Under the pieces are notes generated by a model. The model was not told the origin of the DNA and searched no databases. It saw only the letters and a program-made list of their open reading frames with translations. The position numbers and the translations under genes are program-made. Shown here piece after piece: positions 75 to 62,683 of a DNA stretch of 64,000 nucleotides. Source of the stretch: Caldilinea sp. CFX5 (GTDB lineage Bacteria > Chloroflexota > Anaerolineae > Caldilineales > Caldilineaceae); NCBI GenBank assembly GCA_021405325.1, contig QWII01000072.1, forward strand, positions 1 to 64,000. The letters run 5' to 3'. Each line of letters begins with the position of its first letter. Positions within the stretch are counted from its first letter, which is position 1.

Positions 75-137
75 AGGAGTCCGCAGTCCTTAGTCTGGAC
101 TCTGGACTGCGGACTGCGGACTGCGGACTCTGGACTT
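75..137. repeat. Word-repeat foldback before glycosyltransferase
   Basis: The word GGACTGC recurs in tandem (about 104-127). The segment AGTCCGCAGTCC at 78-89 is its exact complement, matching GGACTGCGGACT at 104-115, so the stretch can fold back on itself. It ends ten bases before the start codon at 147. Bases 1-74 show nothing recognisable. Confidence 0.7.
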
Positions 138-146
138 GAGAATTTC

Positions 147-1352
147 ATGCGGCCACAACGAATCCTCATCTTAATGAGTAACACCGGTGGCGGTCATCGC
201 GCCAGTGCGGAAGCATTAAAAGCCGGCTTTACCCAGTTGTATGGCGAACGTTTTCAGGTGGAGATTATCGATCTGCTGATTGATCACCTGCCGCGACCGC
301 TCAACCTGCTCCCGAACACCTATTCTTTTCTGGTCAATGAAGCGGCCTGGTTCTGGAAATTGCTCTGGAAGACCGGCAATCACCCTATCACCATCCGCCG
401 TCTTTCCACGGTAGTCGCCCATTTGGGGCGGGAATCGGTGGCGCGCACCTTTCTGGCCTATCAACCTGACCTGATTGTCTCCGTCCATCCGCTTGTGCAG
501 GAGTTTACCCTCTATGCCCTGCGGCGGATGAAACGGCGGATTCCCTTTGTCACCGTTGTCACCGATCTGGCGACGGCGCACCCGCTTTGGTTTAACCCCG
601 CGGTGGATGCCTGCTATGTGGCCAGCAAAGAAGCCTACTCGCTCGCTCGGCGGGTGGGGTTGCGCCCCAAGCAACTATACCTCTACGGCTTACCGGTGCG
701 ACCAGCCTTTGCCCAGCCGCCGCCCAATGGCGCAGAATTACGTCAGCGCCTGGGCTTGCAAGCCGATCTGCCGGCGGTTTTGTTGATTAGTGGTGGCGAA
801 GGCGTTGGCCCGGTTGAAGCCATTGCCCGTCAACTCGATGAAACGCTGTCCAAGTCAGGGCAAGCGGTGGGCCAAATGGTGGTTGTTTGTGGGAGGAACG
901 CACGCCTGCGGCAGAAATTAACCAATCACCAATGGCGTATTCCCACCCTGGTGCATGGGTTTATTGAGAATATGCCGGAGTGGATGGCAGCCTGTAACTG
1001 TATTGTCACCAAAGCCGGCCCCGGCACCATTGCCGAAGCGCTGATCAGTGGGCTGCCCATTATCTTAAGCGGCTTTATTCCGGGCCAGGAAGAGGGCAAC
1101 ATTCCCTATGTCTTGCAAAATCAGGTGGGAAGCTATGGTCACTCCCCGCAGGAAATTGCTAACACGGTCCATTATTGGTTTACCGATGGCTGTGACCAAT
1201 TAGCGCAGATGACTATGCGCGCACGTGCGTTGGGGAAACCCCAGGCAACCTTGCAGATTGTCGAGTCGATTGCGCAACTCCTAGAGCTGCAAACACCCCT
1301 TGGTCAAGCAAACCTCAACCTGATGGGCGCTACCAGTCAAGCTCCTGCCTGA
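147..1352 (+). CDS. MGDG-synthase-like glycosyltransferase (GT28 family)
   Basis: This 401-residue protein resembles diacylglycerol glycosyltransferases of the MGDG synthase/UgtP type, which move a sugar from a UDP-sugar onto diacylglycerol at the inner membrane face. The N-terminal acceptor domain opens with the glycine-rich SNTGGGHRASAEAL. The C-terminal GT28 domain (about 200-375) carries SGGEGVG and the donor-site segment TKAGPGTIAEAL near residue 290, followed by PGQEEGN. Length is normal for the bacterial family. There is no signal peptide, as expected for a peripheral membrane enzyme. It stands alone, with a strong hairpin overlapping its stop codon. The lipid substrate is inferred from family membership only; a MurG-like acceptor is less likely because of the MGDG-type N-terminus. 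Confidence 0.82.
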   Translation: MRPQRILILMSNTGGGHRASAEALKAGFTQLYGERFQVEIIDLLIDHLPRPLNLLPNTYSFLVNEAAWFWKLLWKTGNHPITIRRLSTVVAHLGRESVARTFLAYQPDLIVSVHPLVQEFTLYALRRMKRRIPFVTVVTDLATAHPLWFNPAVDACYVASKEAYSLARRVGLRPKQLYLYGLPVRPAFAQPPPNGAELRQRLGLQADLPAVLLISGGEGVGPVEAIARQLDETLSKSGQAVGQMVVVCGRNARLRQKLTNHQWRIPTLVHGFIENMPEWMAACNCIVTKAGPGTIAEALISGLPIILSGFIPGQEEGNIPYVLQNQVGSYGHSPQEIANTVHYWFTDGCDQLAQMTMRARALGKPQATLQIVESIAQLLELQTPLGQANLNLMGATSQAPA

Positions 1353-1393
1353 TGAAAGTTAAAAAATTACGTCGCTTTTTAGCTTTCATCAGG
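1348..1393 (+). terminator. Hairpin overlapping the glycosyltransferase stop
   Basis: The arms CCTGATGAAAG (1348-1358) and CTTTCATCAGG (1383-1393) pair perfectly and extend through an A-run/T-run to about 18 pairs. The stop codon TGA at 1350-1352 is inside the left arm. It probably ends transcription from the glycosyltransferase gene. Confidence 0.7.
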
Positions 1394-1503
1394 CTGGGAG
1401 CCTTGCCCTGTTCATCATTGTGCCATTGTCACTTTGCGCATGCTTGTTGGGGTTGTTCGGCTTGGCTGATGGAAGAGCGCCTGTCACCAGGTGCTCTTCC
1501 GCT

Positions 1504-2247
1504 TTAGCGCAAAGTCTCCATGTTGTGCCGTTGGGGCAGGCAATAACCCTGACCGCGCACGGTGACGACATAGCGGGGATTATCCGGATCCGGTTCAATC
1601 TTGCTGCGCAGCCGGCGCACATGCACCCACAACGATTCGACCGTCCCTTTGCGCACCGGGTCCCAGGCTTTGGCCAGGAGGAAGCCCGGCGAAAGGACAC
1701 GCCCGCGGTTGTTGTAGAGAATGTGCATCAAGCGGTTCTCGGTCGGGGTTAACATGATCTGATCATTGTCCACGACCGCGTATTGCTGGGCAAAGTTAAT
1801 GCGCAGATGATCGTCGATGACTAATTCCGGATCGACCACCTGATCCGACGCCACGCGCAACAGCACGCGACGGACACGGGCCAGCAATTCAGAGAAAGCG
1901 AAGGGCTTCGTGATGTAATCTTCCGCATAGCGGTTCAACCCTTCCACCTTGGTGTTGGTGTCGGAGAGGGCCGAGAGGAAGATAATCGGAATATCACCCA
2001 TGCGGCGCAATTCCGCCGCCACCGCAAAACCATCCATGCCTGGCATCATAATATCCAGAATGACCAGATGGGGCAACCCTTCTTGCTGAACGATCTCCAA
2101 CGCTTCGGTGCCGCTGCCGGCTGCGTAGACTGTGTAGCCTTCGCGTTGCAGGCGCAGGTTGAGCATCAGCCGTGTATCGGCTGCGTCATCCACCACCAAA
2201 ATGCGTTTAGGGTCATTCACCGTGGTTACAGCTTGTTGTTCACTCAT
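1504..2247 (-). CDS. OmpR/PhoB-family response regulator
   Basis: The 247-residue protein has a receiver domain (about 14-130) with the acidic pair D20-D21, the predicted phospho-acceptor D65 in [12 protein letters not shown], and the conserved lysine in YITKPF. A winged-helix DNA-binding domain (about 145-243) ends in the typical [14 protein letters not shown]. The start is supported by AAGGAAG six bases upstream. No histidine kinase lies next to it, so this is an orphan regulator and its signal cannot be read from context. It is divergent from the S41 protease gene across a 785-bp gap holding a duplicated module, which could be its binding site. Confidence 0.93.
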
Positions 2248-4289: not shown

Positions 4290-4290
4290 T

Positions 4291-4335
4291 AACGTGATTC
4301 GTGGCCTTCGACAGGCTCAGGCCACGAATCACGTT
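4291..4335. terminator. Shared bidirectional hairpin, TTCGACAGGCTCA loop
   Basis: Perfect 16-bp arms (4291-4306, 4320-4335; AACGTGATTCGTGGCC) enclose the loop TTCGACAGGCTCA. It follows the S41 stop by one base and covers the stop codon of convergent nadD at 4329-4331, so it can serve both genes. The same loop recurs at 25645 and 26640 on different stems. Confidence 0.75.
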
Positions 4336-6425: not shown

Positions 6426-8030
6426 ATGGAGCCACAGCGCTTTTCCCAGGATTCTCGCTCTTGTGACAAATTTGTTAAGCTGGCGCTCCCCCTATGCCTT
6501 CTCATCGCTTGCCTACTCTTTCTACCTGGGTCGTGGCGGCTACAACCTGCATTGGCCCAAAGTGATGACACCCCCACCCATACTGTGCAAGCCGGTGAAA
6601 CATTAAGCAGCATTGCCGAACGCTACGGTGTGACCCTAGCCGAGTTGATGACCCTGAACGGCATCACCGACCCCGACGCCATTGTGATCGGCCAGGAATT
6701 GTTGTTGCCGGCAGCCGCCGCTGAACAGCCGCCAGCCACCCCGCTGCCGGTTCATACCGTGGGCGCCGGGGAGACATTGAGCGAAATTGCGCAACAATAC
6801 AATGTTTCCCTCACCCGGCTGATGCTCTTCAATGGCTTGCGCGACGCCAACGCCCTCTACGAAGGACAACGCCTCCGCATTCCGCCGCCGGAGGATGAGG
6901 AAGCGCCAACCCCAACGACGGCGCCGCCGGCAACAGCGCCGCCTGAACCGACAGCCATTGCTACCACAGCTGAATTACCCACAGCGACAGCAACCACGGC
7001 GGAAACTACAGACGACGAAAGCGCGGTTGAGCCAACCGCGGCGCCCGCTGAGCCGGTCGATGTGGCGCGGCTGACCACTTCGCTGAACAGCGTCTACACG
7101 GTCCGTTCCGGCGACACGCTGGCGCGCATCGCCTTGCGCAATGGTGTTGACTTCGACACCTTGCGCCAGTTGAATGGCATTGCCCCGGATGACATTGGCA
7201 ATCTGGCCGCCGGGCAGACGCTCATCCTGCCGGCGACCGGCGCCGATCTGCAAGTGCGCACACAAGAGCGCGAATATGTCGTCGAGCCAGGCGATAGTTT
7301 GGGGTCGATTGCCGCCCAGTTTGATCTAACACTGGCCGATCTATTGACGGCAAACTGGATCACCAACCCGGACAATATTGTGGTCGGGCAACGGCTGGCG
7401 ATTCCCGGGAAGGTGTCGGATGAGGCGTCGGCAAAACAAGTTGGGCCGTTGCGTCGCGGCTATTATTACTATACCGTGCAGCCCGGTGACACTCTCTCAA
7501 CGTTGGCCAATGCCCTGAACACGACCAAACTGGCGATTTTGGAATACAACGGTTTGCCCGATGAAGAGACAGTCTATGCCGGACTGGAAATTCGGGTTCC
7601 CTATGGCCCGCCGGCGCCACCCAACCAACGCCCGCCGACGCCGGCCTCCGGCACCAATTTCCAGGTTAGTTTAAGCCGCCAACAATGTTGGCTCTTCCAG
7701 GGTGATCGCGTTCGCTATTCATGGACCTGTAGCACGGGCTATGGCGAATGGATCACCCGTGTCGGCTCTTTTGCGGTGCAGAGCAAGATCGAAAATGCCA
7801 AGAGCAGCGCCTACCGGCTCGATATGCCCTATTGGCTGGGCATATACAATGTGGGCCAGTATGAAAATGGCATTCACGGGCTGCCGGTTGAGTGGGACAC
7901 TGGCAAAAAGATTTGGGAGCGGCTGATCGGCGAGCCGGCTACCTTTGGCTGTGCCATGCTTGACGATCGCGACGCCGCCATTCTCTTTGCGATGGCCTAC
8001 ATCGGGATGCCGGTGCATATTATTCATTAA
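6426..8030 (+). CDS. Five-LysM L,D-transpeptidase (YkuD domain)
   Basis: The 534-residue protein is exported (hydrophobic LALPLCLLIACLLFLP, then ALAQ) and carries five LysM repeats, each near a Y/H-T-V-x-x-G-[DE]-[ST]-L core. A Pro/Thr-rich linker separates repeats 2 and 3. The C-terminal YkuD domain has IHGLP and ATFGCAMLDD, with the catalytic Cys in place of the usual S-x-G-C context. It should bind peptidoglycan and form 3-3 crosslinks or attach to the wall. The start at 6426 is chosen because CAGGA lies eight bases upstream and the promoter at 6341-6368 excludes the earlier ATG at 6354. It is followed at once by a 19-bp hairpin. Confidence 0.9.
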   Translation: MEPQRFSQDSRSCDKFVKLALPLCLLIACLLFLPGSWRLQPALAQSDDTPTHTVQAGETLSSIAERYGVTLAELMTLNGITDPDAIVIGQELLLPAAAAEQPPATPLPVHTVGAGETLSEIAQQYNVSLTRLMLFNGLRDANALYEGQRLRIPPPEDEEAPTPTTAPPATAPPEPTAIATTAELPTATATTAETTDDESAVEPTAAPAEPVDVARLTTSLNSVYTVRSGDTLARIALRNGVDFDTLRQLNGIAPDDIGNLAAGQTLILPATGADLQVRTQEREYVVEPGDSLGSIAAQFDLTLADLLTANWITNPDNIVVGQRLAIPGKVSDEASAKQVGPLRRGYYYYTVQPGDTLSTLANALNTTKLAILEYNGLPDEETVYAGLEIRVPYGPPAPPNQRPPTPASGTNFQVSLSRQQCWLFQGDRVRYSWTCSTGYGEWITRVGSFAVQSKIENAKSSAYRLDMPYWLGIYNVGQYENGIHGLPVEWDTGKKIWERLIGEPATFGCAMLDDRDAAILFAMAYIGMPVHIIH

Positions 8031-8032
8031 CC

Positions 8033-8072
8033 GATATTGGGTATTGGTCATGAATGACCAATACCCAATATC
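8033..8072. repeat. 19-bp perfect foldback with 2-base loop
   Basis: Arms 8033-8051 and 8054-8072 are exact complements around the loop GA. The words TTGGGTATTGG and CAATACCC repeat inside and just past it. It lies three bases after the LysM gene stop and 20 bases before the next start, and likely acts as a terminator or mRNA 3' stabiliser. Confidence 0.75.
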
Positions 8073-8092
8073 CAATACCCACTGATCGTCTC

Positions 8093-9124
8093 ATGACCAA
8101 TCACCAGATTCTACCCGCCGGCAAATTACCCGCCTCTCTGCTCACTCGCCTGTTGGGCGATTTGCCGACCCATCACCCGCAACTGTTGCTTGGCCCGGCA
8201 GTGGGTGAAGATGCCGCCGTCATTACCTGGGGAAATGATGGCGATCAGCTACTCGTGGCCAAGAGCGACCCCATCACCTTTGCCACGGATGAGATCGGTT
8301 ATTATGCCGTCAATGTCTGCGCCAATGACCTGGCCGTCACCGGCGCGCGCCCGCTCTTTTATTTGCCGACCATTCTGTTGCCGGCGGGCCAGACCGATAT
8401 GGCGTTGGCAGAACGAATCTTTCAACAAATCGGCGCCGCCTGTCGCCGGTTGAGCATTGTGGTGGCCGGTGGTCATAGCGAGATCACACCGGCTGTCACC
8501 CAGCCGGTGGTGGCGGGAACAATGTTGGGCGCCGTTCAGCGGACACAAGTTGTCACCAGCCGGGGTGCCCAGGTGGGTGATCTGGTTCTCATGGCCGGCC
8601 AGGCGCCGGTGGAGGGAGCAAGCATCATTGCCCGCGAGATGGGGCCGCAATTGCGTCAACAAGGGTGGTCGGCAGCAGAGATCGAAGAGGCAGCCAACTA
8701 TCTCTACACGCCGGGAATTAGCGTCTTGCAACCGGCGTTGCTGGCTGCCGAAGCGGGCTTGGTCACGGCGATGCACGATCCAACCGAAGGCGGCGTCGTC
8801 ACCGGCTTGCTGGAATTGGCGGTAGCGGCGGAGGTGGGGCTGGTGGTTGCGCTGGATGCCCTGCCGCTTTCCGATCTGGCTGTGCGTCTGTGCGCCGCTT
8901 TTGGTCTCGACCCGCTAGGGGTGATCGCCTCCGGCGCGCTCCTTGCCACGGCGCCGGCAGCCAACGTTGAGCAGTTGCAGCAACTCTGGCTGACGCATGG
9001 TTGGTCTTCGGCGCAAGTGGGACGCGTGGTTGCCAAAACGGAGGGGATCACCGCCTATCGCCAGGGGCAGCCGACGCCGTTCCCACACTTTGCCGCTGAC
9101 GAGATTACAAAACTTTGGCAGTAA
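8093..9124 (+). CDS. AIR-synthase-related (HypE/PurM-fold) protein
   Basis: The 343-residue protein has the PurM/HypE two-domain ATP-binding fold: GPAVGEDAAVI near the N-terminus, then VCANDLAVTGARPLFYL, and GGHSEITPAV, HDPTEGGVV and GVIASGALL further on. HypE dehydrates a carbamoylated C-terminal cysteine to make the cyanide ligand of NiFe hydrogenase. Here the C-terminus is ITKLWQ with no PRIC motif, and no hyp genes are nearby, so a HypE role is unlikely. The substrate is unknown. The ATG at 8054 lies in the hairpin arm; the second ATG at 8093 is preferred. Confidence 0.8.
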   Translation: MTNHQILPAGKLPASLLTRLLGDLPTHHPQLLLGPAVGEDAAVITWGNDGDQLLVAKSDPITFATDEIGYYAVNVCANDLAVTGARPLFYLPTILLPAGQTDMALAERIFQQIGAACRRLSIVVAGGHSEITPAVTQPVVAGTMLGAVQRTQVVTSRGAQVGDLVLMAGQAPVEGASIIAREMGPQLRQQGWSAAEIEEAANYLYTPGISVLQPALLAAEAGLVTAMHDPTEGGVVTGLLELAVAAEVGLVVALDALPLSDLAVRLCAAFGLDPLGVIASGALLATAPAANVEQLQQLWLTHGWSSAQVGRVVAKTEGITAYRQGQPTPFPHFAADEITKLWQ

Positions 9125-10203: not shown

Positions 10204-10273
10204 GTCGGGGCGCACCCTTGCGGTCGCCCCGGTTCTCCGGTGAGCTGGGGCGACCGCAAGGGTGCGCCCCGAC
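10204..10273. repeat. 27-bp perfect foldback, GGGGCGCACC family
   Basis: Arms 10204-10230 and 10247-10273 pair perfectly; the arm core is GGGGCGCACCCTTGCGGTCG. The 16-base loop includes CTCCGGTGAGC. A related copy in the opposite orientation lies at 12725-12796. It sits between the oxidase stop and the transporter start. Confidence 0.78.
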
Positions 10274-11186: not shown

Positions 11187-11190
11187 CAAC

Positions 11191-11356
11191 AATCGAACGC
11201 GGATTGGGCGGATTTAACGGATACAGGACTTACGCAAGACGCCGGGCACCCTCTGGGTGCCCGGCAGTAATTCGTCTTGCGTAAGTCCTGGGATAAAAGC
11301 GAATCTCATAAAAATCCGCCAAAATCCGCCAAAATCCGCTCGATCCGCGTTCGATT
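11191..11356. repeat. Long foldback interrupted by a miniature element
   Basis: AATCGAACGCGGAT (11191-11204) is matched exactly by its complement at 11343-11356, and pairing continues inward for about 25 bases with two mismatches. The right arm holds three tandem copies of AAAATCCGCC-like words. The left arm is cut at 11223/11224 by a 67-bp element. It lies between convergent transporter and dioxygenase genes. Confidence 0.7.
11224..11290. mobile_element. 67-bp MITE-like element with 5-bp target duplication
   Basis: The ends are perfect 18-bp inverted repeats (11224-11241 and 11273-11290, beginning CAGGACTTACGC). An internal 11-bp hairpin lies at 11241-11265 (GCCGGGCACCC). GGATA flanks both sides (11219-11223, 11291-11295), as expected for a target-site duplication. 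It has no coding capacity and would need a transposase elsewhere. Confidence 0.65.
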
Positions 11357-11371
11357 GCTTTGGTTTGTGAT

Positions 11372-12724: not shown

Positions 12725-12796
12725 CGTAGGGGCGCACCTTGCGGTCGCCCTATGCTCGCCGGAGAACGGGGGCGACCGCAAGGGTGCGCCCCTACG
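12725..12796. repeat. Foldback, inverted copy of the GGGGCGCACC family
   Basis: Arms 12725-12750 and 12770-12796 pair with one bulged base. The arm core matches the element at 10204-10273. The loop carries GCTCGCCGGAG, the reverse complement of that element's CTCCGGTGAGC with one change, so the two copies are in opposite orientation. It ends just before the dabA stop. Confidence 0.76.
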
Positions 12797-25613: not shown

Positions 25614-25686
25614 GGTGAGTGGGTGATTCGGTGCATCGGTGATTTCGACAGGCTCAATCACCGATGCACCGAATCACCCACTCACC
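25614..25686. repeat. 31-bp perfect foldback, TCGACAGGCTC loop
   Basis: Arms 25614-25644 and 25656-25686 are exact complements around the 11-base loop TCGACAGGCTC. The arm is built of words such as GGTGATTCGGTGCATCGG. The inner end touches the stop codon (25686-25688) of the upstream dehydrogenase gene. Confidence 0.82.
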
Positions 25687-26611: not shown

Positions 26612-26678
26612 GTGATTCGTGCTGCGTGATTCGTTCCCTTCGACAAGCTCAGGGAACGAATCACGCAGCACGAATCAC
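26612..26678. repeat. 28-bp perfect foldback, TCGACAAGCTC loop
   Basis: Arms 26612-26639 and 26651-26678 are exact complements around TCGACAAGCTC. The arm words GTGATTCGTG and CTGCGTGATTCG recur at 4291 and 27844. It lies between two same-strand genes. Confidence 0.82.
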
Positions 26679-27821: not shown

Positions 27822-27843
27822 GGAATGTCTCCTTTTGTGTTGC

Positions 27844-27968
27844 GTGCTGCGTGATTCGTGTTACGTGAACTAGCTAGCGGGTTTTGGTCGGCTAAAGAAC
27901 CATTTATCCCGCAGTAAGAAAAGACTGAAGTCTTTACTACAGTTCACGCAACACGAATCACGCAGCAC
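27844..27968. repeat. 28-bp foldback with inserted second hairpin
   Basis: Arms 27844-27871 and 27941-27968 pair with one mismatch; the words CTGCGTGATTCGTG match the element at 26612. The 69-base loop contains another hairpin around AAGACTGAAGTCTT (27920-27934), so an older foldback may have received an insertion. Confidence 0.72.
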
Positions 27969-27978
27969 GTATCATGAT

Positions 27979-28802: not shown

Positions 28803-28859
28803 GAGATTGAGAGATTCAGAGATTGGGAGCAAGCTCCAATCTCTGAATCTCTCAATCTC
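28803..28859. repeat. 27-bp foldback of the GAGATTGAGAGATT word family
   Basis: Arms 28803-28830 and 28833-28859 pair with one extra base in the left arm and a two-base loop. The words GAGATTGAGAGATT recur at 41640 and 62613. It sits in the divergent gap between the transporter and phosphotransferase genes, so it cannot be a simple terminator for either. Confidence 0.8.
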
Positions 28860-31356: not shown

Positions 31357-31413
31357 GGGTATACCTTACTATCATTAATGAGTAAATAGCTTGAACAGCA
31401 GACGAGAATTTTA

Positions 31414-31481
31414 GGTAACACGGATAGGGAGAAACACCGATTTTAATTTTTCTATCCGTGTTCTTCCCTATCCGTGTTACC
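31414..31481. repeat. Foldback of the ACACGGATAGG word family
   Basis: Outer arms 31414-31430 and 31465-31481 pair perfectly (GGTAACACGGATAGGGA), and the inner part continues with mismatches to about 31 pairs. The same words appear at 32659. Confidence 0.72.
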
Positions 31482-31537
31482 TGCTTTGGCTCTGGTCTGT
31501 CCAGGTTTAGGGTAAAAGCGTGGAAAATGCCCTTGAT

Positions 31538-32658: not shown

Positions 32659-32715
32659 AGACACGGATCGGAAGGAACACGAATCATCAATCGGTGTTCC
32701 TTCCTATCCGTGTCT
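32659..32715. repeat. Foldback of the ACACGGATAGG word family
   Basis: Arms about 32659-32683 and 32691-32715 pair with two to three mismatches; the outer word is AGACACGGAT and the inner GGAAGGAACAC. It lies between two minus-strand genes. Confidence 0.7.
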
Positions 32716-39549: not shown

Positions 39550-39603
39550 TATCACCGCGAATCATCTCGACGTTATTCGCTAATCCTATGATTCGCGGTG
39601 ATA
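39550..39603. repeat. 16-bp perfect foldback between two permease genes
   Basis: Arms 39550-39565 and 39588-39603 (TATCACCGCGAATCAT) pair perfectly around a 22-base loop. It is inside the transporter operon, not at its end. Confidence 0.75.
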
Positions 39604-39683
39604 GCGGGCAGCCGACCCTATGGCTGAATAGTCACCTTTGACAAAACAATCGTTGAATTTGTTTGAACGTAGGAAGGGTGATT

Positions 39684-40532: not shown

Positions 40533-40544
40533 GGAAAACAGCAG

Positions 40545-40619
40545 CACTACAACGGATTCGGAAAGGAACGGATTTGTTAGAAAAAAAACAAACCCGTCCT
40601 TTCCGAATCCGTTGTAGTG
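40545..40619. repeat. Long foldback between permease and ATPase genes
   Basis: Arms about 40545-40577 and 40587-40619 pair with one bulge; the outer word is CACTACAACGGATTCGG, followed by AAAGGA(A)CGG. A short A-rich loop joins them. It lies in the transporter operon. Confidence 0.75.
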
Positions 40620-40673
40620 TTGTCGTACTCAGTAGAAGCGATTACCCTCTTTCTTGAGCTTTGGAAGCAACGT

Positions 40674-41633: not shown

Positions 41634-41639
41634 CCTGTT

Positions 41640-41711
41640 TGAGATTGAGAGATAAAGAGATTGAGAGATTTATCTTCTCTAATCTCTCAATCTCTTTATC
41701 TCTCAATCTCA
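41640..41711. repeat. 31-bp perfect foldback, GAGATTGAGAGAT family
   Basis: Arms 41640-41670 and 41681-41711 are exact complements around a ten-base loop. The words AGAGATAAAGAGATTGAGAG match the element at 62613. It is six bases after one ATPase gene and 21 before the next. Confidence 0.85.
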
Positions 41712-41732
41712 CAATCTCTACTAGCAAATCCT

Positions 41733-43702: not shown

Positions 43703-43764
43703 CCGCTCATGGCGAGTCCGTGACTCGGCCAGCCTGGTGCGAGTCACGGACTCGCCATGAGCGG
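43703..43764. repeat. 25-bp perfect foldback
   Basis: Arms 43703-43727 and 43740-43764 are exact complements (CCGCTCATGGCGAGTCCGTG at the outer part) around a 12-base loop. It lies between the sigma-factor stop and the broken MFS gene start. Confidence 0.8.
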
Positions 43765-50700: not shown

Positions 50701-50752
50701 TGCGGTTTGTAACCGCACGGTTCCCAGGGAGCAAGTGCGGTTACAAACCGCA
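50701..50752. repeat. 18-bp perfect foldback downstream of helicase
   Basis: TGCGGTTTGTAACCGCAC (50701-50718) pairs exactly with 50735-50752 around a 16-base loop. Each arm is itself partly palindromic (GCGGTT/AACCGC). Confidence 0.8.
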
Positions 50753-50925: not shown

Positions 50926-50989
50926 TCACCACTGGATAGAGAAAGCGCACAGAGGAAAACCTCTGTGCGCTTTCTCTATCCAGTGGTGA
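50926..50989. repeat. 30-bp perfect foldback with AAAA loop
   Basis: Arms 50926-50955 and 50960-50989 are exact complements around AAAA. The inner part reads AGAAAGCGCACAGAGG. It is one of the most stable hairpins in the window. Confidence 0.85.
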
Positions 50990-51822: not shown

Positions 51823-51878
51823 TGATTGGGTGATTAGGTCATTGCTGCCTACTGCCCAATAACCTAATCACCCAATCA
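51823..51878. repeat. 17-bp perfect foldback before importer 2
   Basis: TGATTGGGTGATTAGGT (51823-51839) pairs exactly with 51862-51878. The GTGATT words resemble those at 25614. Confidence 0.75.
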
Positions 51879-52878: not shown

Positions 52879-52879
52879 G

Positions 52880-52985
52880 AGCCGGAACACAGAGAGCACA
52901 GAGAATGCACAGAGGACACAGCGTCAGACAATGCTTCGGTTTTTCTCTGGACTCTCTGCGCCGCCTCTGCGTACTCTGTGTCCCA
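52880..52985. repeat. Imperfect foldback of CACAGAG words
   Basis: ACACAGAG-type words on the left (52886-52920) face CTCTGTGT-type words on the right (52948-52982) with several mismatches. The words recur at 60107. It separates the two permease genes. Confidence 0.55.
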
Positions 52986-53007
52986 ATAGTTTGTCATAGG
53001 GTTGATT

Positions 53008-54135
53008 ATGATTGCAGATGAACAACTGTTGCGTCCGCAAACGCAGCTCACAAAGAAAGATGAAAAGTTTCTGGTGGCTTCCCAGTGGCAATTGATCCGC
53101 TGGAAGTTTGCGCGCCATCGCGTGGCGGTCTTGTCGCTAGTGATTCTGATCATCTTCTATGTGGTCGCCGGCTTTGCCGAGTTTTTCGCACCCTATGCCG
53201 CCGATGACTACGACATTGATTATGTCCTGGCCCCGCCCCAGCGTATTCATTGGGTTGATGAAGGGCGCTTCCGTCCCTTTGTCTATGGCTACACCGCCGA
53301 ACTGGACCCCAACACTTTCCGCACCACCTATAAGGTCGATGAGAGCCGCAAGTTTCCCCTGGCCTTTTGGGTCAAGGGAGAGCCGTACAATCTCTTGGGG
53401 TTTGCGGGGGAGCGCCGTCTGTTTGGCGTAGCCGAAGGCAAAGTTCATCTCCTTGGCGCCGATGACCGGGGGCGCGATCTCTTTTCACGCATTATCTATG
53501 GGGCGCGCATCTCCCTGTCGATTGGGTTGGTGGGCATTGCCATTAGTTCGTTGATCGGCGTGGTGATCGGCGGCATCTCCGGTTACTTTGGCGGCGCCAT
53601 TGATATGATCATCCAGCGCGTCATCGAGTTTATCCGCTCCATTCCCACCCTGCCGTTGTGGATGGCGCTGAGTGTGGCCCTGCCGCCGACCTGGAGTATT
53701 GTCCAAGCTTATTTTGGCCTTGTGATCATCCTCTCGCTGGTCGGCTGGACGGGGTTGGCGCGCGTGGTGCGCGGGAAGTTCTTGTCACTACGTGAGGAAG
53801 ATTTTGTCATGGCGGCCCAACTCAACGGCGCCACCGAACGGATTATCATCTTCAAGCATCTGCTGCCCCTCTTCTACAGCCATGTCATCGCCTCGCTCAC
53901 GCTAAGTGTGCCGGGCATGATCCTGGGGGAGACGGCACTCAGTTTTATCGGGTTGGGCTTGCAACCGCCGGCGGTCAGTTGGGGCGTGCTGCTCAAAGAT
54001 TCGCAGAAGATTCGGGTGCTGGCCGAGGCGCCCTGGCTGCTGATTCCGGGGGTCTTTGTCATTATCGCCATTCTGGCCTTTAACTTTGTCGGCGATGGGC
54101 TGCGCGATGCGGCAGATCCGTACGCGACGGTGTAG
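53008..54135 (+). CDS. DppC-type permease of ABC importer 2 with long first loop
   Basis: The 375-residue membrane protein is longer than a normal DppC (about 280-300) because an outside loop of some 110 residues lies between the first and second helices (FFAPYAADDYDIDYVLAPPQ, then FRTTYKVDESRKFPLAFWV to LLGADDRGRDLFSRI). The core has the coupling loop REEDFVMAAQLNGATERIII and the ending DGLRDAADPYATV. The loop may help dock the binding protein. The ATG at 53008 has AGGG six bases upstream. Confidence 0.92.
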   Translation: MIADEQLLRPQTQLTKKDEKFLVASQWQLIRWKFARHRVAVLSLVILIIFYVVAGFAEFFAPYAADDYDIDYVLAPPQRIHWVDEGRFRPFVYGYTAELDPNTFRTTYKVDESRKFPLAFWVKGEPYNLLGFAGERRLFGVAEGKVHLLGADDRGRDLFSRIIYGARISLSIGLVGIAISSLIGVVIGGISGYFGGAIDMIIQRVIEFIRSIPTLPLWMALSVALPPTWSIVQAYFGLVIILSLVGWTGLARVVRGKFLSLREEDFVMAAQLNGATERIIIFKHLLPLFYSHVIASLTLSVPGMILGETALSFIGLGLQPPAVSWGVLLKDSQKIRVLAEAPWLLIPGVFVIIAILAFNFVGDGLRDAADPYATV

Positions 54136-54136
54136 G

Positions 54137-54259
54137 GCTGTCAACGGATTCAGGGAACAGATTGAACGAATTATTGTCTGTAATCCGTTCTCAGCATGGC
54201 ATCGTAGAACGGATTATGCGATGTATCCGCTCAATCCGCTCCCTGAATCCGCTGACAGC
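54137..54259. repeat. Nested foldback between permease and ATPase genes
   Basis: Outer arms 54137-54156 and 54240-54259 pair with one mismatch (GCTGTCAACGGATTCAGGGA). An inner 11-bp pair TAATCCGTTCT/AGAACGGATTA lies at 54181-54191 and 54206-54216. The whole structure fills the gap between genes. Confidence 0.78.
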
Positions 54260-54276
54260 GTTGTGTCCCAAAACGA

Positions 54277-55284
54277 ATGAAAGTCACGATGACCGGTAAC
54301 GACGTTTTACTCAATGTCAAAAATTTAACCACCCATTTCTTCTCCCGCGAAGGCGTCGTCAAAGCCGTCGATGGCGTCAGCTTTGCCGTGCGCCGGGGCG
54401 AGACCTTGGGCATTGCCGGCGAGAGCGGCTGTGGCAAGAGCGTTATGGCCCAGTCGATCCTGCGCATTGTGCCGGGCAACGGGCGCATTGTCGATGGCGA
54501 AATTTCGCTCTATCACAACAATGAGATCATCGACCTGGTCAAGCTCGACTGGCAAGGCCCGCAAATCCGCGCGATTCGCGGCGGCATTATCTCCATGGTC
54601 TTTCAGGAGCCGATGACTTCCTTTAGCATGAATTACACCATCGGCAACCAGATCAGCGAGGTGATCCGGCTACACCAACAGTGCAGCGAAAAGGAGGCGC
54701 GCCAACGGGCCATCGATATTCTGAGCAAAGTGGGGCTGCCCAAACCGGAACAGACGATCGACGCCTACCCCTTTGCCCTAAGCGGCGGGATGCGCCAACG
54801 GGCGATGATCGCGATGGCGCTCTCCTGTCACCCCCGTCTCTTGATCGCCGACGAACCAACCACCGCGCTCGATGTGACGATCCAGGCCCAGGTGCTTGAC
54901 CTGATGAAGGCGTTGCAGCGCGAGTTGGGCATGGCGCTCATTGTCATTACCCATGATCTGGCGGTTATTTCCGAGTTGTGCGACAGCGTGATGATCATGT
55001 ATCTGGGGACGGATGTGGAGAGCGCCCCGGCGCAGGAGCTTTTTCGCAATCCCAAACACCCCTATACGATTGGGTTGCTCAGTTCCGTGCCCAAACTCGG
55101 CGCCGGCAAAACGCAGATTATCGAACCCATTCAAGGCACGGTGCCGACGCCCAGTGAACGCTCTAGCGGCTGTCCGTTCCACCCGCGCTGTCCGCAAGCG
55201 ATCCAGGGGACATGCGATGTCCACTTCCCGCGCCAGGTGGAAGTGGGCGCCGGCCATACAGTGCGCTGTCATCTGTATCCATGA
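54277..55284 (+). CDS. DppD-type ATPase of ABC importer 2
   Basis: The 335-residue ATPase has Walker A GESGCGKSVM, signature LSGGMRQR, Walker B LLIADEPTTALD and the C-terminal CPFHPRCPQAIQGTC cluster. It resembles oligopeptide-type ATPases. It pairs with the ATPase at 55377. Confidence 0.94.
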   Translation: MKVTMTGNDVLLNVKNLTTHFFSREGVVKAVDGVSFAVRRGETLGIAGESGCGKSVMAQSILRIVPGNGRIVDGEISLYHNNEIIDLVKLDWQGPQIRAIRGGIISMVFQEPMTSFSMNYTIGNQISEVIRLHQQCSEKEARQRAIDILSKVGLPKPEQTIDAYPFALSGGMRQRAMIAMALSCHPRLLIADEPTTALDVTIQAQVLDLMKALQRELGMALIVITHDLAVISELCDSVMIMYLGTDVESAPAQELFRNPKHPYTIGLLSSVPKLGAGKTQIIEPIQGTVPTPSERSSGCPFHPRCPQAIQGTCDVHFPRQVEVGAGHTVRCHLYP

Positions 55285-55305
55285 TGTAACTATTCAGCCG
55301 GGAAC

Positions 55306-55323
55306 GCCGCCATCCTTGGCGGC
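55306..55323. repeat. Short GCCGCC/GGCGGC hairpin between ATPase genes
   Basis: GCCGCC (55306-55311) and GGCGGC (55318-55323) pair around ATCCTT. It is shorter than the other foldbacks in the window. Confidence 0.5.
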
Positions 55324-55376
55324 AGGCGGCGGCAAAAATCGATGCCAGAATCGTTACTACGTAATTCAGTAAAGCC

Positions 55377-56420
55377 ATGATCAATCAAGACGCAATTGTT
55401 GAAGTGAAAGACCTGCATAAACACTTTCCTATCCAGCGCGGCTTTTTGCGCCGGGTAGTGGGGCAGGTGAAGGCCGTTGATAATGTTAGCTTCGCCGTGA
55501 AGCGGGGGGAAACGTTGGCTTTGGTGGGCGAAAGCGGCTGTGGCAAGACGACTACAGGTCGTTGCATTCTGCGCGCCATTGAGCCATCCGCCGGCAATAT
55601 TCTCTTTCGCCCTACTGACGCTGAGTCCACTGTGGACTTGACCACGCTGGCCATCCCTGACCTGCGGCAGATGCAGCGGCACATGGGCATGATCTTTCAA
55701 GACCCCTACTCGTCGCTCAACCCGCGCATGACGATTCTGGAGATTATCGGCGAACCATTTCTCAACCGGAAGCTAGTGACGCGCAAGCGTGAACTGGAAG
55801 AGCGGGTGGCGGAACTGCTCCAAAGCGTGCGGCTCGACCCCAGTTACATGCGCCGCTACCCCCATGCCTTTAGCGGCGGTCAGCGCCAGCGCATTGCCAT
55901 TGCCCGCGCCCTGGCGCTCAACCCGCCTTTTGTCGTGGCCGATGAACCGGTCTCGGCGCTCGATGTGTCGGTGCAGGCGCAAATTTTGAGCCTGCTCAAG
56001 GAGTTGCAACGCGAACGCAACTTGACCTATCTCTTTGTCGCCCACAACCTGGCGGTGGTCGAGTATATCAGCGATCGGGTTGCGGTGATGTATGTCGGGC
56101 AGATTGTCGAACTGGGCGAGACGCAGCGGATCTTTGCCCAGCCCAAACATCCCTACACCGAAGCGTTGCTCTCCGCCGTCCCCGTGATCGAGACCGCGCA
56201 CGGCCACAAACGGGAACGCATTGTACTGGCCGGCGACATTGCCGATCCGGCCAATCGCCCCAGTGGTTGCTTCTTTCACCCCCGGTGCAGCTATGTGCAA
56301 GATCGCTGTCGCCGCGAAGAACCGCCCTTGGTGAATGTCGCCCAGACCGGCGAACAACCCCATTTCGCCCGCTGTCACTTTGCCGAGAGCCTGTCCTTAA
56401 AAGGCGTAACACCAAGCTAA
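55377..56420 (+). CDS. DppF-type ATPase of ABC importer 2
   Basis: The 347-residue ATPase has Walker A GESGCGKTTTGR, the Q-loop in FQDPYSSLNPRMT, signature FSGGQRQRIAIARAL, Walker B VVADEPVSALDVS and the C-terminal GCFFHPRCSYVQDRC cluster. It completes the ATPase pair of importer 2. Confidence 0.94.
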   Translation: MINQDAIVEVKDLHKHFPIQRGFLRRVVGQVKAVDNVSFAVKRGETLALVGESGCGKTTTGRCILRAIEPSAGNILFRPTDAESTVDLTTLAIPDLRQMQRHMGMIFQDPYSSLNPRMTILEIIGEPFLNRKLVTRKRELEERVAELLQSVRLDPSYMRRYPHAFSGGQRQRIAIARALALNPPFVVADEPVSALDVSVQAQILSLLKELQRERNLTYLFVAHNLAVVEYISDRVAVMYVGQIVELGETQRIFAQPKHPYTEALLSAVPVIETAHGHKRERIVLAGDIADPANRPSGCFFHPRCSYVQDRCRREEPPLVNVAQTGEQPHFARCHFAESLSLKGVTPS

Positions 56421-56428
56421 CCCGCCCC

Positions 56429-56500
56429 GTAGGGACGCTTGAGTTTAGGGTAGGAACATGGAAAAAATTCTCGAATTTCTTGAAACTCAGGCGTCCCTAC
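56429..56500. repeat. 18-bp foldback between ATPase and binding-protein genes
   Basis: GTAGGGACGCTTGAGTTT (56429-56446) pairs with 56483-56500 with one mismatch; GAAAAAATTC/GAATTTC-like pairing continues in the loop. In-operon position suggests separate handling of the binding-protein mRNA. Confidence 0.75.
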
Positions 56501-56571
56501 AGGACTGGTGAAGATCCTGATCATCGTATGTAATTCATGTTTTGGAGAGCAGATCAACAGGAGGCTACGAG

Positions 56572-58650
56572 ATGAAAACAACGCTGTTTCGTGTACTGAG
56601 TTTGCTCGTGATACTGACCATGCTGGTCAGCGCGTGCGCCGCTCCCGCCGGGCCGGCGGCCAGCGAGGGGGGCGGTGAGCAGGCCGCCGCTCCCGCCGGT
56701 GAGCAACAAGCGGCGGCTCCGGCCGGCGCTATTCTCACCGACAAGCCGGCCGACGCCGGTGAGCGCCCGGTGCAGGCCGATCTGTACAATTCGCCGGCTG
56801 AGTATGAAGCGGCCACCGGCGAAAAGATCGCCGCATTTGGCGAGGCGCCCGAACTAGCCGAGGCCGTCGCTAAGGGCGACTTGCCCCCGGTAGCCGAACG
56901 GTTGCCGGCAGAACCGATTGTCGTCAAGCCGGAGGAGGCCATCGGCAAGTATGGCGGCGCCCTACGCATGGCGATCACCGGCCAGAACGAAAAGACCAAC
57001 GAGGTCGGCACCTGGTGGTCGATGGAGCCGCTGACCATTCACTCGCCCAAAGGGGTGATTGTCCCCAATGTCGCCACCAGTTGGGAATGGTCAGAGGATT
57101 ACAAGACCCTCACCCTCAAGCTGCGCGAAGGCATCAAGTGGAGCGACGGCGTCCCCTTCACCGCCGACGACATCATGTTCTGGTGGCAAGATGTGGTGCT
57201 GAACACCGATCTGACGCCAACACCTCATACGCTGTTAACTCGTGGCGGGCAAGTGGCGGAATTGACCAAAATTGACGATTACACCATTCAATTCGCCTTT
57301 GCCGAACCCTATGCCCTCTTCACCACCTATCTGGGCAGTTGGGGCTTTCCACGCGCCGACCCGACCAGCCACCCCAAGCACTACCTGACCAAGTTCCACC
57401 CCAACTACACCGACGCCGCCGAACTTGAGAAGGCGATGAAAGAACAGAGCTTTGACACCTGGGTCGATTTCTTCAGGAATCAGAGCGCCGTCACCAACCC
57501 GGAGAAGCCAACGATTGCCGCCTGGATCCCCCAGGAGTGGCCGCCGCAGCCGCTCCAGATCCACAAGCGCAACCCCTATTACTGGAAAGTGGACAGCGCC
57601 GGCAATCAACTGCCTTATATCGGTGAAATTCAAAGCACCCGCACCGCCGACCGCCAGGCCACCTTGCTCAAGACCATTGCCGGCGATCTCGACTTTGCGC
57701 GCATGGGCAGCATCGACCTGCCGCTCATGACCGATAACAAGGAGCAGGGCAACTATCGCTTCGCCTATGCCGACTGGATGCCCAATGCCTTCTGTAACAT
57801 CATGTTTAACTACGATAGTCCGGAAGCGGCCAAAAAGACACTCTACAACGACGTGCGCTTCCGTCAGGCGCTTTCGGTGGCGATCAACCGGGAAGAGATT
57901 ATCAAGCTCTTCTACAAAGGGGGCGTCTTCGCCTCACAGGTCGCCCCCTTGCGCGGCGAGCCGTACCACGGCGAATCCGATCTCTTCCAATCCTACGCCC
58001 AATTTGACCCTGAGGTGGCGAATCAAATGCTCGACGAACTGGGTCTCACGGCGCGCGACGCCGAAGGCTTCCGCCTGGCCCCGGACGGCAGCGAACTGTT
58101 GCTCATTGTCTATGTCAATACCTCCTGGCCGGCTGAATGTCCGGAGGTGATGGAAGTGGTGCGCGGCTACTGGGAAGAGATCGGCATCAAGGCCACAATC
58201 ACCCCGGAAGCCGGCGAATTGTGGGGGACGCGTCACAACGCCGGTGAACATGATATGGCCGTGCGTGGCGCACACTTTGGCGGCGGTCCTGTCCACCCGA
58301 CGCTCAACGGCAATACCTTTGCCCTCAGCGGTTGGCAATGGGCGCCGCAATGGGCCAAGTGGCTGGACACCCAGGGCGCCGAAGGTTCTGAACCGCCGGA
58401 TGATGTCAAGCGCATTCGCGAAATTCGCGAACTGGTGATGGGTGAACCGGATGAAGCCAAACGCACGGCGATGTTGCAAGAGGTCTTTGAGATTCACATG
58501 AAGAACCTCTGGTCGGTTGGCATTGTGGTCGATGACCCCAAGTTCGGCCAGTTGACCGTCGTCCACAACCGGCTGCGCAATGTCGTCACCTGGTCCATCG
58601 CCGGCGAGTGGTATCCAGCGGTGCCGGCGCAGTGGTTTATTAATGAATGA
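56572..58650 (+). CDS. Family-5 solute-binding lipoprotein of ABC importer 2
   Basis: The 692-residue protein has a lipoprotein signal (LLVILTMLVSACAAP), a linker and an SBP_bac_5 body (SWEWSEDYKTLTLKLREGIK, WSDGVPFTADDIMFWWQD). It is larger than most peptide-binding members and resembles those for oligosaccharides. A Gfo/Idh dehydrogenase follows and a glycosidase-like gene precedes the operon, which supports a sugar ligand. GGAGG precedes the ATG at 56572; an ATG ten codons earlier is rejected. Confidence 0.93.
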   Translation: MKTTLFRVLSLLVILTMLVSACAAPAGPAASEGGGEQAAAPAGEQQAAAPAGAILTDKPADAGERPVQADLYNSPAEYEAATGEKIAAFGEAPELAEAVAKGDLPPVAERLPAEPIVVKPEEAIGKYGGALRMAITGQNEKTNEVGTWWSMEPLTIHSPKGVIVPNVATSWEWSEDYKTLTLKLREGIKWSDGVPFTADDIMFWWQDVVLNTDLTPTPHTLLTRGGQVAELTKIDDYTIQFAFAEPYALFTTYLGSWGFPRADPTSHPKHYLTKFHPNYTDAAELEKAMKEQSFDTWVDFFRNQSAVTNPEKPTIAAWIPQEWPPQPLQIHKRNPYYWKVDSAGNQLPYIGEIQSTRTADRQATLLKTIAGDLDFARMGSIDLPLMTDNKEQGNYRFAYADWMPNAFCNIMFNYDSPEAAKKTLYNDVRFRQALSVAINREEIIKLFYKGGVFASQVAPLRGEPYHGESDLFQSYAQFDPEVANQMLDELGLTARDAEGFRLAPDGSELLLIVYVNTSWPAECPEVMEVVRGYWEEIGIKATITPEAGELWGTRHNAGEHDMAVRGAHFGGGPVHPTLNGNTFALSGWQWAPQWAKWLDTQGAEGSEPPDDVKRIREIRELVMGEPDEAKRTAMLQEVFEIHMKNLWSVGIVVDDPKFGQLTVVHNRLRNVVTWSIAGEWYPAVPAQWFINE

Positions 58651-58731
58651 CAGGTAAACAGGTAAACAGGTAGACAGGGAATTGTCACCTGTTTACCTGT
58701 CTACCTGTCTACCTGTCTACCTGTCTACCAG
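58649..58731. repeat. Tandem-word foldback (CTGTCTAC)n
   Basis: The left arm repeats CAGGTARACAGG and the right arm repeats CTGTCTAC four to five times, so many pairing registers are possible. It starts at the stop codon of the binding-protein gene. The tandem copies show how these arms may lengthen. Confidence 0.82.
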
Positions 58732-60063: not shown

Positions 60064-60093
60064 CCGCAAATCCTTTGCCTATTTTCAAAATTT

Positions 60094-60195: not shown

Positions 60196-60197
60196 CC

Positions 60198-61668: not shown

Positions 61669-61708
61669 CCCGGCAGCATATTGAGCCGACTGGAACGACC
61701 TTGCGCGG

Positions 61709-61739
61709 CAAACCAGCTTTCTGGCAGAAAGCTGGTTTG
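61709..61739. terminator. 15-bp hairpin between convergent genes
   Basis: CAAACCAGCTTTCTG (61709-61723) pairs exactly with CAGAAAGCTGGTTTG (61725-61739) around a single base, so the tip opens slightly. It lies between convergent genes and likely terminates both. Confidence 0.8.
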
Positions 61740-61748
61740 TGGTTACAC

Positions 61749-62477
61749 TCATTGCACTGTCACCAGCGGCCGCAACTGTTCGAGGGTGCGCGCCCCAATG
61801 CCAGGCGCCCGTTCCAGATCATCCACCGTGGTATAGGGCCGGTTGGCAATGATGGCGGCTGCTTTGCTGGGGCCAATACCGGGCAATGATTCCAGGTCGG
61901 TGGCTGTGGCGGTGTTTAAATTAATCAGGCCGGCGCTTACACCGCTGCTTTGCTCACCAGCAGGGGCGCTGTCGGCGGCAACCCCGGAGACGCCGGTCGG
62001 CGGTTCCGGCGCGATATTGGCGGTTGTGGCAAGACTCGGCACATGCACCTGCGCCCCATCCCACAACGGTTCGGCCTGGTTGACAATGGCGGCGTTGGCT
62101 TCACCTGTAACCCCGCCGGCTGCGGTGATGGCGTCCGCGACCCGCGCCGTTGGTGACAGGCTGTAGATGCCGGTGCGCACAACGGCGCCGCTGACAAAGA
62201 CAATGATCGGCGCCGCCGTGGCGGTCGGCAATGGGGTGGCAGTCGGCGCGGCAGTCGGCGGCGGGTGGAGAACAATGGGGGGCGGATCAACGCGACGCAA
62301 CAGCAGCGTGCTGCCGCCGACCAGCACCAGGGCGGTCAATAGGCCGAGCAAGTAGGAAAAGCCGTGGAAAACGGTTGTTGGTTGGGCGGTAGTGTTTTGT
62401 GCAATAGTTGGCGGCGCCGGGTTTGTTCCGACGATGAACAATGGATCTGTAGGGGCGGATGGCGTTGCCTGTTTCAT
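61749..62477 (-). CDS. comEA: ComEA-like DNA-uptake protein
   Basis: The 242-residue protein has an N-terminal anchor (SYLLGLLTALVLVGGSTLLL), a Thr/Pro-rich linker, an SLBB domain (IIVFVSGAVVRTGIYSL, then ADAITAAGGVTGEANAAIVN) and a C-terminal helix-hairpin-helix pair (INLNTATATDLESLPGIGPS, APGIGARTLEQL). This is the classical ComEA layout for binding DNA outside the membrane. comEC is not in the window, so competence is not shown. Confidence 0.92.
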   Translation of the reverse strand: MKQATPSAPTDPLFIVGTNPAPPTIAQNTTAQPTTVFHGFSYLLGLLTALVLVGGSTLLLRRVDPPPIVLHPPPTAAPTATPLPTATAAPIIVFVSGAVVRTGIYSLSPTARVADAITAAGGVTGEANAAIVNQAEPLWDGAQVHVPSLATTANIAPEPPTGVSGVAADSAPAGEQSSGVSAGLINLNTATATDLESLPGIGPSKAAAIIANRPYTTVDDLERAPGIGARTLEQLRPLVTVQ

Positions 62478-62612
62478 AGCTTGTCTTCATGGTGTAGTTA
62501 ATTGTAAGGTTGGTGAATGCCTCCATCGTAACAAAAAATAAAGCAGCGACAAGCTACAATTGACGGAACTTGGCGCTGCTGAATGTTGGGAGATTGGGAG
62601 ATAAAGTGGTTG

Positions 62613-62683
62613 AGAGATAAAGAGATTGAGAGATTCAGAGATTGGGTAGGATAATCTCTGAATCTCTCAATCTCTTTATCTCT
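62613..62683. repeat. 31-bp perfect foldback, GAGATTGAGAGATT family
   Basis: Arms 62613-62643 and 62653-62683 are exact complements around nine bases. The words AGAGATAAAGAGATTGAGAG match the element at 41640 and the rest resembles 28803. Extra unpaired copies of the word lie to the left (62587-62612). Confidence 0.85.

Follow-up and report, generated by a model that had tools for sequence, protein, structure and literature searches.

Palindromes of iterated 7- and 8-nucleotide words behind stop codons in Caldilineaceae

We analyzed a 64,000-nucleotide (nt) stretch of contig QWII01000072.1 of Caldilinea sp. CFX5 (hereafter the window), in which DNA hairpins punctuate many gene junctions. Our main subject is a class of these hairpins whose arms iterate a word of 7 or 8 nt, here called word palindromes. 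The window has 57% G+C and is ~83% coding by our own simple codon-model gene caller, which, in place of a curated annotation, set all gene borders. Window genes named by Pfam include oligopeptide ATP-binding cassette (ABC) operons at 38440-42725 and 51892-58650, Obg, DabA and a DEAD-box helicase. The Obg GTPase is closest to Caldilineales, with 62-68% identity at loci L001-L005 and up to 76% in genomes G038 and G039. No Rfam family reached its gathering score in the window, and no tRNAs were found there.

A strong hairpin (score ≥13, loops ≤90 nt) was present in 26 of the 43 window gaps of at least 30 bp, compared to 0 of 281 coding pieces and 0.0 shuffled gaps, confirming an enrichment in intergenic over coding DNA and over shuffled sequence. 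The first-pass annotation of this DNA had placed a foldback in almost every gap, which is true of many gaps but overstates the 26; by gap type, hairpins occurred in 21/32 tandem, 4/5 convergent and 1/6 divergent gaps. At score ≥11 with loops ≤30 nt there were 28 hairpins, compared to 0–2 in 10 whole-window dinucleotide shuffles, and the earlier count of more than 30 is reached only by including the nested, imperfect long-loop structures that folding adds (e.g. 11187-11371 and 27822-27978). Coding pieces reached score 11 in 3/281 cases, and two weak hairpins of that score (17657, 32182) sit inside predicted genes, so that the claimed absence from coding DNA is true of strong hairpins only. At score 14 with loops ≤20 nt we obtained 19 intergenic and 0 coding hairpins, with 0 in two shuffles; the measure used below for relatives gave 21 intergenic and 0 coding in 64 kb, with 3 in one shuffle of all sequence. 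Control DNA at the same cut yielded 4 intergenic hairpins in 200 kb of E. coli K-12, none word-iterated by eye, 5 in 135 kb of Bacillota-type loci, and 0 in Armatimonadota (17 kb), Halanaerobiales (26 kb) and Caldilineales (21 kb) loci. The window hairpins are real, non-random and a mixed population, comprising word palindromes, one pair of repetitive extragenic palindromic (REP) elements, GTAG-headed hairpins, and plain or terminator-like hairpins.

Word palindromes were defined by a score of 14 and a lag identity of 0.65. The window contains seven, six of them of period 8, with arms of 18–31 bp (here and below, a strand is given where the feature has one):

8033..8072, word palindrome of period 7 (TATTGGG/TATTGGT), 2 nt behind a stop, G-rich arm first
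25614..25686, perfect 31-bp word palindrome of period 8, GGTGATTC-like words, loop TCGACAGGCTC, abutting the stop of gene 25686-26591 (minus strand)
28803..28859, word palindrome of period 8 (AGAGATTN), the sole hairpin found in the divergent gaps of the window
41640..41711, perfect 31-bp word palindrome of period 8 (AGAGATTN), in the oppD/oppF gap, 6 nt behind a stop
51823..51878, word palindrome of period 8 (TGGGTGATTAGGTCATT), 5 nt behind a stop
58649..58725, word palindrome of period 8 (AACAGGTA), overlapping a stop codon
62613..62683, perfect 31-bp word palindrome of period 8 (AGAGATTN), 6 nt behind the stop of 62690-63898 (minus strand)

Word iteration in the arms, as first reported, is real and specific, with a period of 7 or 8. 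To place the window among its relatives, we surveyed 32 genomes of the family in samples of 20–460 kb. Among hairpin arms of at least 16 nt (n = 132), 38 were periodic at p 0.05 where 6.6 were expected; the period was 7 in 21 of them and 8 in 13. Hairpin density ranged from 0 to ~30 per 100 kb, and we labeled clades "rich" or "poor" after seeing these densities; in the poor set, of which 16 genomes were sampled, density was 0–2.5 per 100 kb. An Obg tree places 11 of the 21 hairpin-poor genomes in a single clade separate from the others and the window, the remaining 10 being outside the tree. The density contrast coincides with a single deep split, so that phylogeny confounds it. Loss of the nuclease SbcD was considered and rejected as a cause of the contrast, as SbcD-like matches occurred in 43/46 genomes (missing in G024, G028 and G042, with only 1 over the cut-off) and showed no clear difference between clades.

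The period does not depend on hairpin detection. A hairpin-independent scan of intergenic sequence (224 kb, rich clade plus window), in which one array can be counted at several periods, found 78 tandem arrays at period 7 and 24 at period 8, along with 52 at period 14 (twice 7) and 12 at period 15, compared to 0 at periods 5, 6 and 11 and 1–6 at 4, 9, 10, 12 and 13 (4 each at 9 and 10). Coding DNA (1400 kb) held 9 arrays of period 7 and 1 of period 8, and shuffles held 0. Among 248 rich-clade hairpins, 50 arms had a lag identity of at least 0.65, of which 45 were of period 7 or 8. A fixed AGAGATTN palindrome pattern was found in 4/46 family genomes and its reversed control in 0. Inverted partners accompanied 35/78 rich-clade arrays at period 7 and 18/24 at period 8, compared to none of the 15 period-7 arrays of the poor clade; under a second definition, 71/114 arrays were mirrored in the rich clade and 1/14 in the poor clade. 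Array formation and mirroring are therefore two separable steps, since unmirrored arrays occur in both clades and mirrored arrays almost only in the rich one.

Word palindromes also have a distinct position. Among 175 gap hairpins of all classes, 43 lay in convergent gaps (19 expected by length), 123 in tandem gaps (113 expected) and 9 in divergent gaps (43 expected), and 97 of those in tandem gaps were closer to the upstream stop compared to 26 closer to the next start. By itself this distribution is usual for bacterial stem-loops, as described in the available part of PMC1590033. Word palindromes in tandem gaps, by contrast with the other hairpins, lay within 10 nt of the upstream stop in 21/36 cases (9.4 expected; median 5 nt), and in gaps of at least 150 bp in 10/18 (1.9 expected); the other hairpins did so in 30/139 cases where 25.9 were expected, showing no preference beyond chance. 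Unmirrored arrays of the rich clade lay within 10 nt of a stop in 15/31 cases. Stop triplets were enriched in word arms (81 compared to 63 ± 4 in shuffles), with 10/45 arms closing all three frames (1.85 expected) and 13/45 lacking any stop. At L137, L129, L175, L223 and L066 the word array includes the upstream gene's own stop codon, which suggests that arrays have replaced gene ends.

The arms are polar as well. Read on either strand, the G-rich arm came first in 41/45 word palindromes, in 22/25 word clusters (p 1.6e-4) and in all 7 of the window, while unmirrored arrays were not polar in the sense direction (17 G-rich, 14 C-rich). A single word pattern and its mirror image were then run against complete genomes, with overlapping matches counted: the G-first form had 448 matches in 17/46 family genomes and the C-first form 32 in 2/46, with 0 and 1 for reversed-pattern controls, and the majority form was G-first in 16 genomes and C-first in 1 (G023). 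A stricter pattern in 400 genomes of the phylum found the G-first form at 7 places in 6 genomes and the C-first form in 0/400 (controls 0 and 3); the pattern was picked after the family data were seen, which makes the phylum set the independent, if small, part of the test. The reversed control pattern corresponds to a G-first palindrome of TTAGNGG words, with 2 matches in G369 and 1 in G423; TTAGNGG is another word with G-first polarity.

Other foldbacks of the window are also built of words but lie outside the class as defined or have nested or imperfect arms:

77..130, foldback of CGGACTG words, opening with the C-rich arm by one base, score 13 where the class requires 14
11187..11371, plus strand, nested foldback with CGGATTGGGCGGATT words outside and GGACTTACGCAAGACG and CCGGGCACCC hairpins inside
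26612..26678, perfect 28-bp palindrome of CGTGATT words with loop TCGACAAGCTC, a stop lying 3 nt away; outside the class by its lag-7 identity of 0.57, where 0.65 is required
27822..27978, minus strand, nested foldback with CGTGCTGCGTGATTCGTG words outside and a AGTAAAGACTTCAGTCTTT hairpin inside
31413..31482, foldback of ACACGGAT words
32659..32715, foldback of ACACGGAT words
40545..40619, foldback of CAACGGATT words in the oppC/oppD gap (the orthologous gap of G041 is ~2 nt)
52879..53007, plus strand, imperfect foldback of ACACAGAG/GCACAGAG words
54136..54276, plus strand, nested imperfect foldback of ACGGATT words

The palindromes at 4291-4335, 25614-25686 and 26612-26678 have the loop TCGACARGCTC in common and differ in their arms, a pattern that the addition of various word arms to a single core hairpin would produce. 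A foldback arm, (ATAG)AACGCGGATTGGGCGGAT, recurs in three deep branches sampled (G034, G043, G031; associated loci L075, L137, L125, L131, L120, L200, L068 and L069), and a close version lies at 11187-11371 of the window. The remaining hairpins are REP-like or plain:

10204..10273, 27-bp palindrome of the GGGGCGCACC family, without a GTAG head
12737..12783, REP-like hairpin of the GGGGCGCACC family, GTAG head in front
39550..39603, plain 16-bp hairpin, loop 22 nt, in the oppB/oppC gap
43703..43764, perfect 25-bp palindrome without word iteration
50701..50752, inverted REP pair, one GTAG-headed copy (GTAGGTGCGGTTTGTAACCGCAC) and a second copy without the head
50926..50989, perfect 30-bp palindrome, loop 4 nt, without a period of 7 or 8
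56429..56500, GTAG-headed foldback (GTAGGGACGCTTGAGTTT)

Direct scans confirmed that the foldbacks at 8033, 10204, 25614, 26612, 41640, 43703, 50926 and 62613 are perfect or nearly so. Of the operon-internal foldbacks reported alongside them, those at 39550 and 40545 proved to be longer-looped hairpins, and folding showed those at 52880, 54137 and 56429 to be imperfect or nested.

The word class is best read as DNA-born repeat material and not as a set of conserved RNA signals. Specifically, we favor birth at the DNA level by slippage and fold-back switching, tolerated at gene ends, over RNA function and mobility, and give this account about an even chance. First, tandem arrays in which a word of 7 or 8 nt recurs in degenerate form would arise at gene ends, presumably by slippage; the existence, period and stop-codon position of the arrays are observed. 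Second, arrays would be mirrored into palindromes via fold-back template switching, a process that can create and retain perfect stems (PMC8794818, in its available part). Third, palindromes would persist only where harmless, which is to say behind stop codons and between convergent genes. With a non-triplet period and stop-rich words, an array often carries stops in several frames and, on entering a gene end, might immediately supply a new stop. Effects on termination, decay or ribosome release would be secondary, and a secondary mRNA effect from the location behind stop codons is possible. Growth by slippage and template switching, as proposed in the first-pass annotation, is plausible from the word iteration, though no individual event was found.

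Several observations weigh against this account. Plain template switching predicts no fixed polarity, which leaves the G-first rule unexplained; the other hairpins are also G-first, more weakly (126 compared to 55), so that the word class is not alone in being polar; and in G023 the rule is reversed, with 31 C-first and 9 G-first matches to palindromes of GATTGGA words (e.g. G023:C200:12109-12147). Words overhang the palindromes without side preference (17 compared to 15), and no mirroring event was found between sister genomes, the closest pairs having ~85–91% median protein identity. Window hairpins of all classes in tandem gaps lay within 10 nt of a stop in 9/20 cases (5.7 expected). Hairpins recurred at the same junctions of G029 and G026 (both/first/second/neither 3/3/0/15, p 0.015), which could mean function, and some families are dispersed or common to deep branches, which speaks for mobility. 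Finally, differences between related hairpins (71/620, 11.5%) only modestly exceeded mismatches within hairpins (98/1240, 7.9%) in 24 independent pairs, in a test that dropped pairs with fewer than 2 differences. Active homogenization of arms would need differences far above mismatches, and decay of copied palindromes fits about equally. Concerted arm evolution was set aside on this weak signal; arms at junctions 6 and 8 of the G029 group are rearranged yet matched. For the dispersed families, spread of ready-made palindromes followed by decay is possible.

The strongest rival holds that these are functional structures of mRNA 3' ends, hairpins of any sequence that selection keeps behind certain genes, where they would halt ribosomes or polymerase or hold off exonucleases, and we regard it as a serious possibility that is nonetheless doubtful. 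It would account for the excess in convergent gaps and the scarcity in divergent ones, and for the placement of the word class directly behind stops; ribosome stalling by REP elements no more than 15 nt from a stop codon has been reported (PMC12306157, in its available part). Moreover, hairpins found at a shared junction differ in sequence between sister species (by eye) and between related genomes. Within the G029 group, junctions 0, 6, 8, 10 and 11 have hairpins in most species shown and 7, 9 and 12 lack them (by eye). Scripted counts for further pairs, which are small and all share G029, gave 3/0/1/5 for G029-G031 (p 0.048), 1/1/1/3 for G029-G030 and 0/1/0/2 for G029-G027. Neither the 7/8 period nor the G-first polarity is needed for such a role, however, and the first-pass proposal that the hairpins protect mRNA 3' ends or act in differential expression of operons did not find support. 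In sense orientation, G-U and A-C mismatches numbered 15 and 15 in the word class and 35 and 34 in the rest, a small sample without a positive control (an earlier cut gave 26 and 35); selection on RNA pairing should favor G-U, and the symmetry does not support it. In orthologous opp operons (OppD 69–85% identity), at the counterparts of the three hairpin-bearing opp junctions of the window, a hairpin was present at 3/10 and absent from 7/10 scored by eye, with unrelated sequences; this scoring leaves out the oppC-oppD junction of G036, which was not scorable, and an oppB-less fragment of G031. The oppC-oppD and oppD-oppF gaps of G041 measure ~2 and 32 nt compared to 84 and 99 nt in the window. 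The wide range of density among relatives, down to the near-absence of hairpins in the poor set, points the same way. Hairpins are dispensable at some junctions and recurrent at others, and the combination of no G-U excess, no U-tract and orthologous operons often without a hairpin does not support selection on RNA pairing.

Mobile elements, whether REP-like or miniature transposons moved by Y1 REP-associated tyrosine transposases (RAYT) or other transposases and since diverged in words and loops, are in our view unlikely to explain the word class. A whole-genome search found Y1_Tnp in 20/46 family genomes, all among G022-G046, and in 0/21 of the hairpin-poor set. In the surveyed samples, the 15 genomes with Y1_Tnp (1543 kb) had 148 hairpins in gaps and 6 in coding DNA, and the 17 without (831 kb) had 12 and 3; intergenic density was 9.6 compared to 1.4 per 100 kb. 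The deep split confounds this contrast, however, and within the rich clade word palindromes occurred in 14/20 genomes with Y1_Tnp and 2/5 without (p 0.31), the Y1-free G023 and G025 being rich in them. The window does hold a REP pair: GTAGGTGCGGTTTGTAACCGCAC at 50701 is identical to a REP beside the Y1_Tnp gene of G029 (L205) and near those of G026 and G027. Among 16 inspected Y1 loci of 71 matches, 4 had GTAG-headed palindromes (L205, L211, L213, L215) and 3 had no hairpin (L210, L217, L219); one (L216) had a two-unit heptamer palindrome ~215 nt from the Y1 gene on one side, while the other 15 had no 7/8-word palindrome beside the gene and none of the 16 had one on both sides. RAYT mobilization of the word class is thus not supported by the inspected loci or by association within the rich clade. 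Dispersed families speak for mobility. In G043, an outer word arm of ~25 nt (GAATAAAGAATAAAGATTGGGTAGA-type) is common to 13 sites, and a palindrome is present at 15/16 loci of this family (L184-L199, one of them from G044). Loops, and often inner arms, are nevertheless locus-specific; at L191, L192 and L197 the inner arms of this family differ by locus, yet remain complementary. At L170, foldback repeats at 8003-8161, 2145-2294, 16-129 and 17687-17758 are dispersed, 70–160 bp long and resemble miniature inverted-repeat transposable elements; among the matches listed, the first occurs at 30 or more places in G026 and the other three at several in G027, G030 and G031. A plasmid search with four window hairpins returned nothing beyond one 23-nt match in Arthrobacter.

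It is quite improbable that a dedicated, lineage-variable activity writes G-rich words of 7–8 nt at gene ends and mirrors them, in a telomere-like manner of repeat writing and fold-back within a bacterial chromosome, with the strand rule flipped in G023. Ordinary rho-independent terminators are a very improbable explanation of the word class: the non-periodic hairpins do show terminator-like features (5' arms with A > T in 91 and T > A in 34; T-runs on the 3' side in 22/139 compared to 10/139 on the 5' side), but the word class has no 3' excess of T-runs (4/36 compared to 3/36), which agrees with the earlier remark that the repeats are not just terminators, lies within operons as well, and has a period and polarity that a terminator would not require. 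Snap-back chimeras from metagenome sequencing are scarcely credible: the window apparently derives from an uncultured organism whose closest named relatives are metagenome-assembled genomes, but strong hairpins are confined to gaps, and period and polarity are alike in many separate assemblies, with a similar pattern in Xanthomonas genomes (PMC4692102, in its available part).

Several consequences follow from these observations. First, a vague class of intergenic hairpins is split into populations of differing properties. Second, four regularities become testable, namely the period of 7 or 8, the start at the stop codon, the G-rich arm first and mirroring mainly in one clade. Third, G023 and the sister clade that bears unmirrored arrays provide natural controls for the conversion of tandem repeats to palindromes. 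Lastly, caution is due in taking every intergenic hairpin for a regulatory RNA.

Among known systems, cyanobacteria have short tandemly repeated repetitive (STRR) heptamers, and the P6b stem of their tRNA-Leu(UAA) intron consists of degenerate heptamers that are mirrored; that stem occupies a single intron position, unlike the word palindromes, which occur at many gene ends. REP elements and REP doublets forming hairpins (REPINs) are likewise intergenic palindromes with inverted pairs (PMC2817692, PMC3733652), of which the window has one, at 50701; GTAG heads are present there in one copy, at 12737 and at 56429. Word palindromes differ from REP and REPIN elements, as the available parts of these papers describe them, in lacking a GTAG or GTGG head and a common element sequence, in having arms of 18–31 bp in the window, compared to stems of 5–13 bp in GTAG families (PMC3733652 Table 1), and in not adjoining the inspected Y1 genes, L216 being a weak exception. 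Template-switch hairpins, described by Monttinen and Loytynoja (2022) at RNA genes such as microRNA and rRNA loci (PMC8794818), also acquire perfect stems in one mutational step with no selection on pairing required; tandem-word arrays at bacterial stop codons are not described in the available part of that paper. Surveys of 40 bacterial genomes found stable intergenic stem-loops clustered at gene 3' ends and in convergent gaps (PMC1590033, PMC2267715); a 7/8-nt word period or an arm polarity is not described in the available parts of those surveys.

The closest description in print, judged from its available part, is that of heptameric G-rich repeats by Rehm et al. (2015; PMC4692102), with GGGAATC in Xanthomonas and GGGGA(C/T)T in Nostoc. 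The Xanthomonas heptamers are intergenic, have an average distance of 28 nt to the 5' gene compared to 160 nt to the next, are few between divergent genes, sometimes overlap the stop codon, and in 70 and 75 cases form inverted repeats of two convergent (G-first) sites, of which Nostoc has few. The Caldilineaceae arrays resemble them in the dominance of period 7 among relatives, in their intergenic location close behind the upstream gene, in their rarity in divergent gaps and in their convergent inverted pairs, G023 excepted. They differ in the additional period 8, the many different words, perfect arms of up to 31 bp in the window, mirroring that is frequent in one clade but almost lacking from the sister clade, and the polarity flip of G023. 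They differ further in that most window arms lack the repeated GGG tracts needed for quadruplexes, which the heptameric repeats are discussed as forming (PMC4692102): there is none in the arms at 28803, 41640, 58649 and 62613 and one each at 8033, 25614 and 51823, although some relatives do repeat such a tract (GGGGATT). A literature text search of open-licence papers gave no match for TTCGACAAGCTCAG, and the Caldilineaceae form was not found among the matches listed from such papers, those on Caldilinea palindromes being judged by title and the start of the abstract. Heptamer arrays with inverted pairs were already known; mirrored 7/8-nt word arrays behind stop codons in Caldilineaceae appear to extend that kind. 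Since most window words fail the three-G rule for quadruplexes, the likeness to the heptamers of Rehm et al. in period, stop-codon position and convergence may need another explanation, and this point is the main conceptual gain of the comparison.

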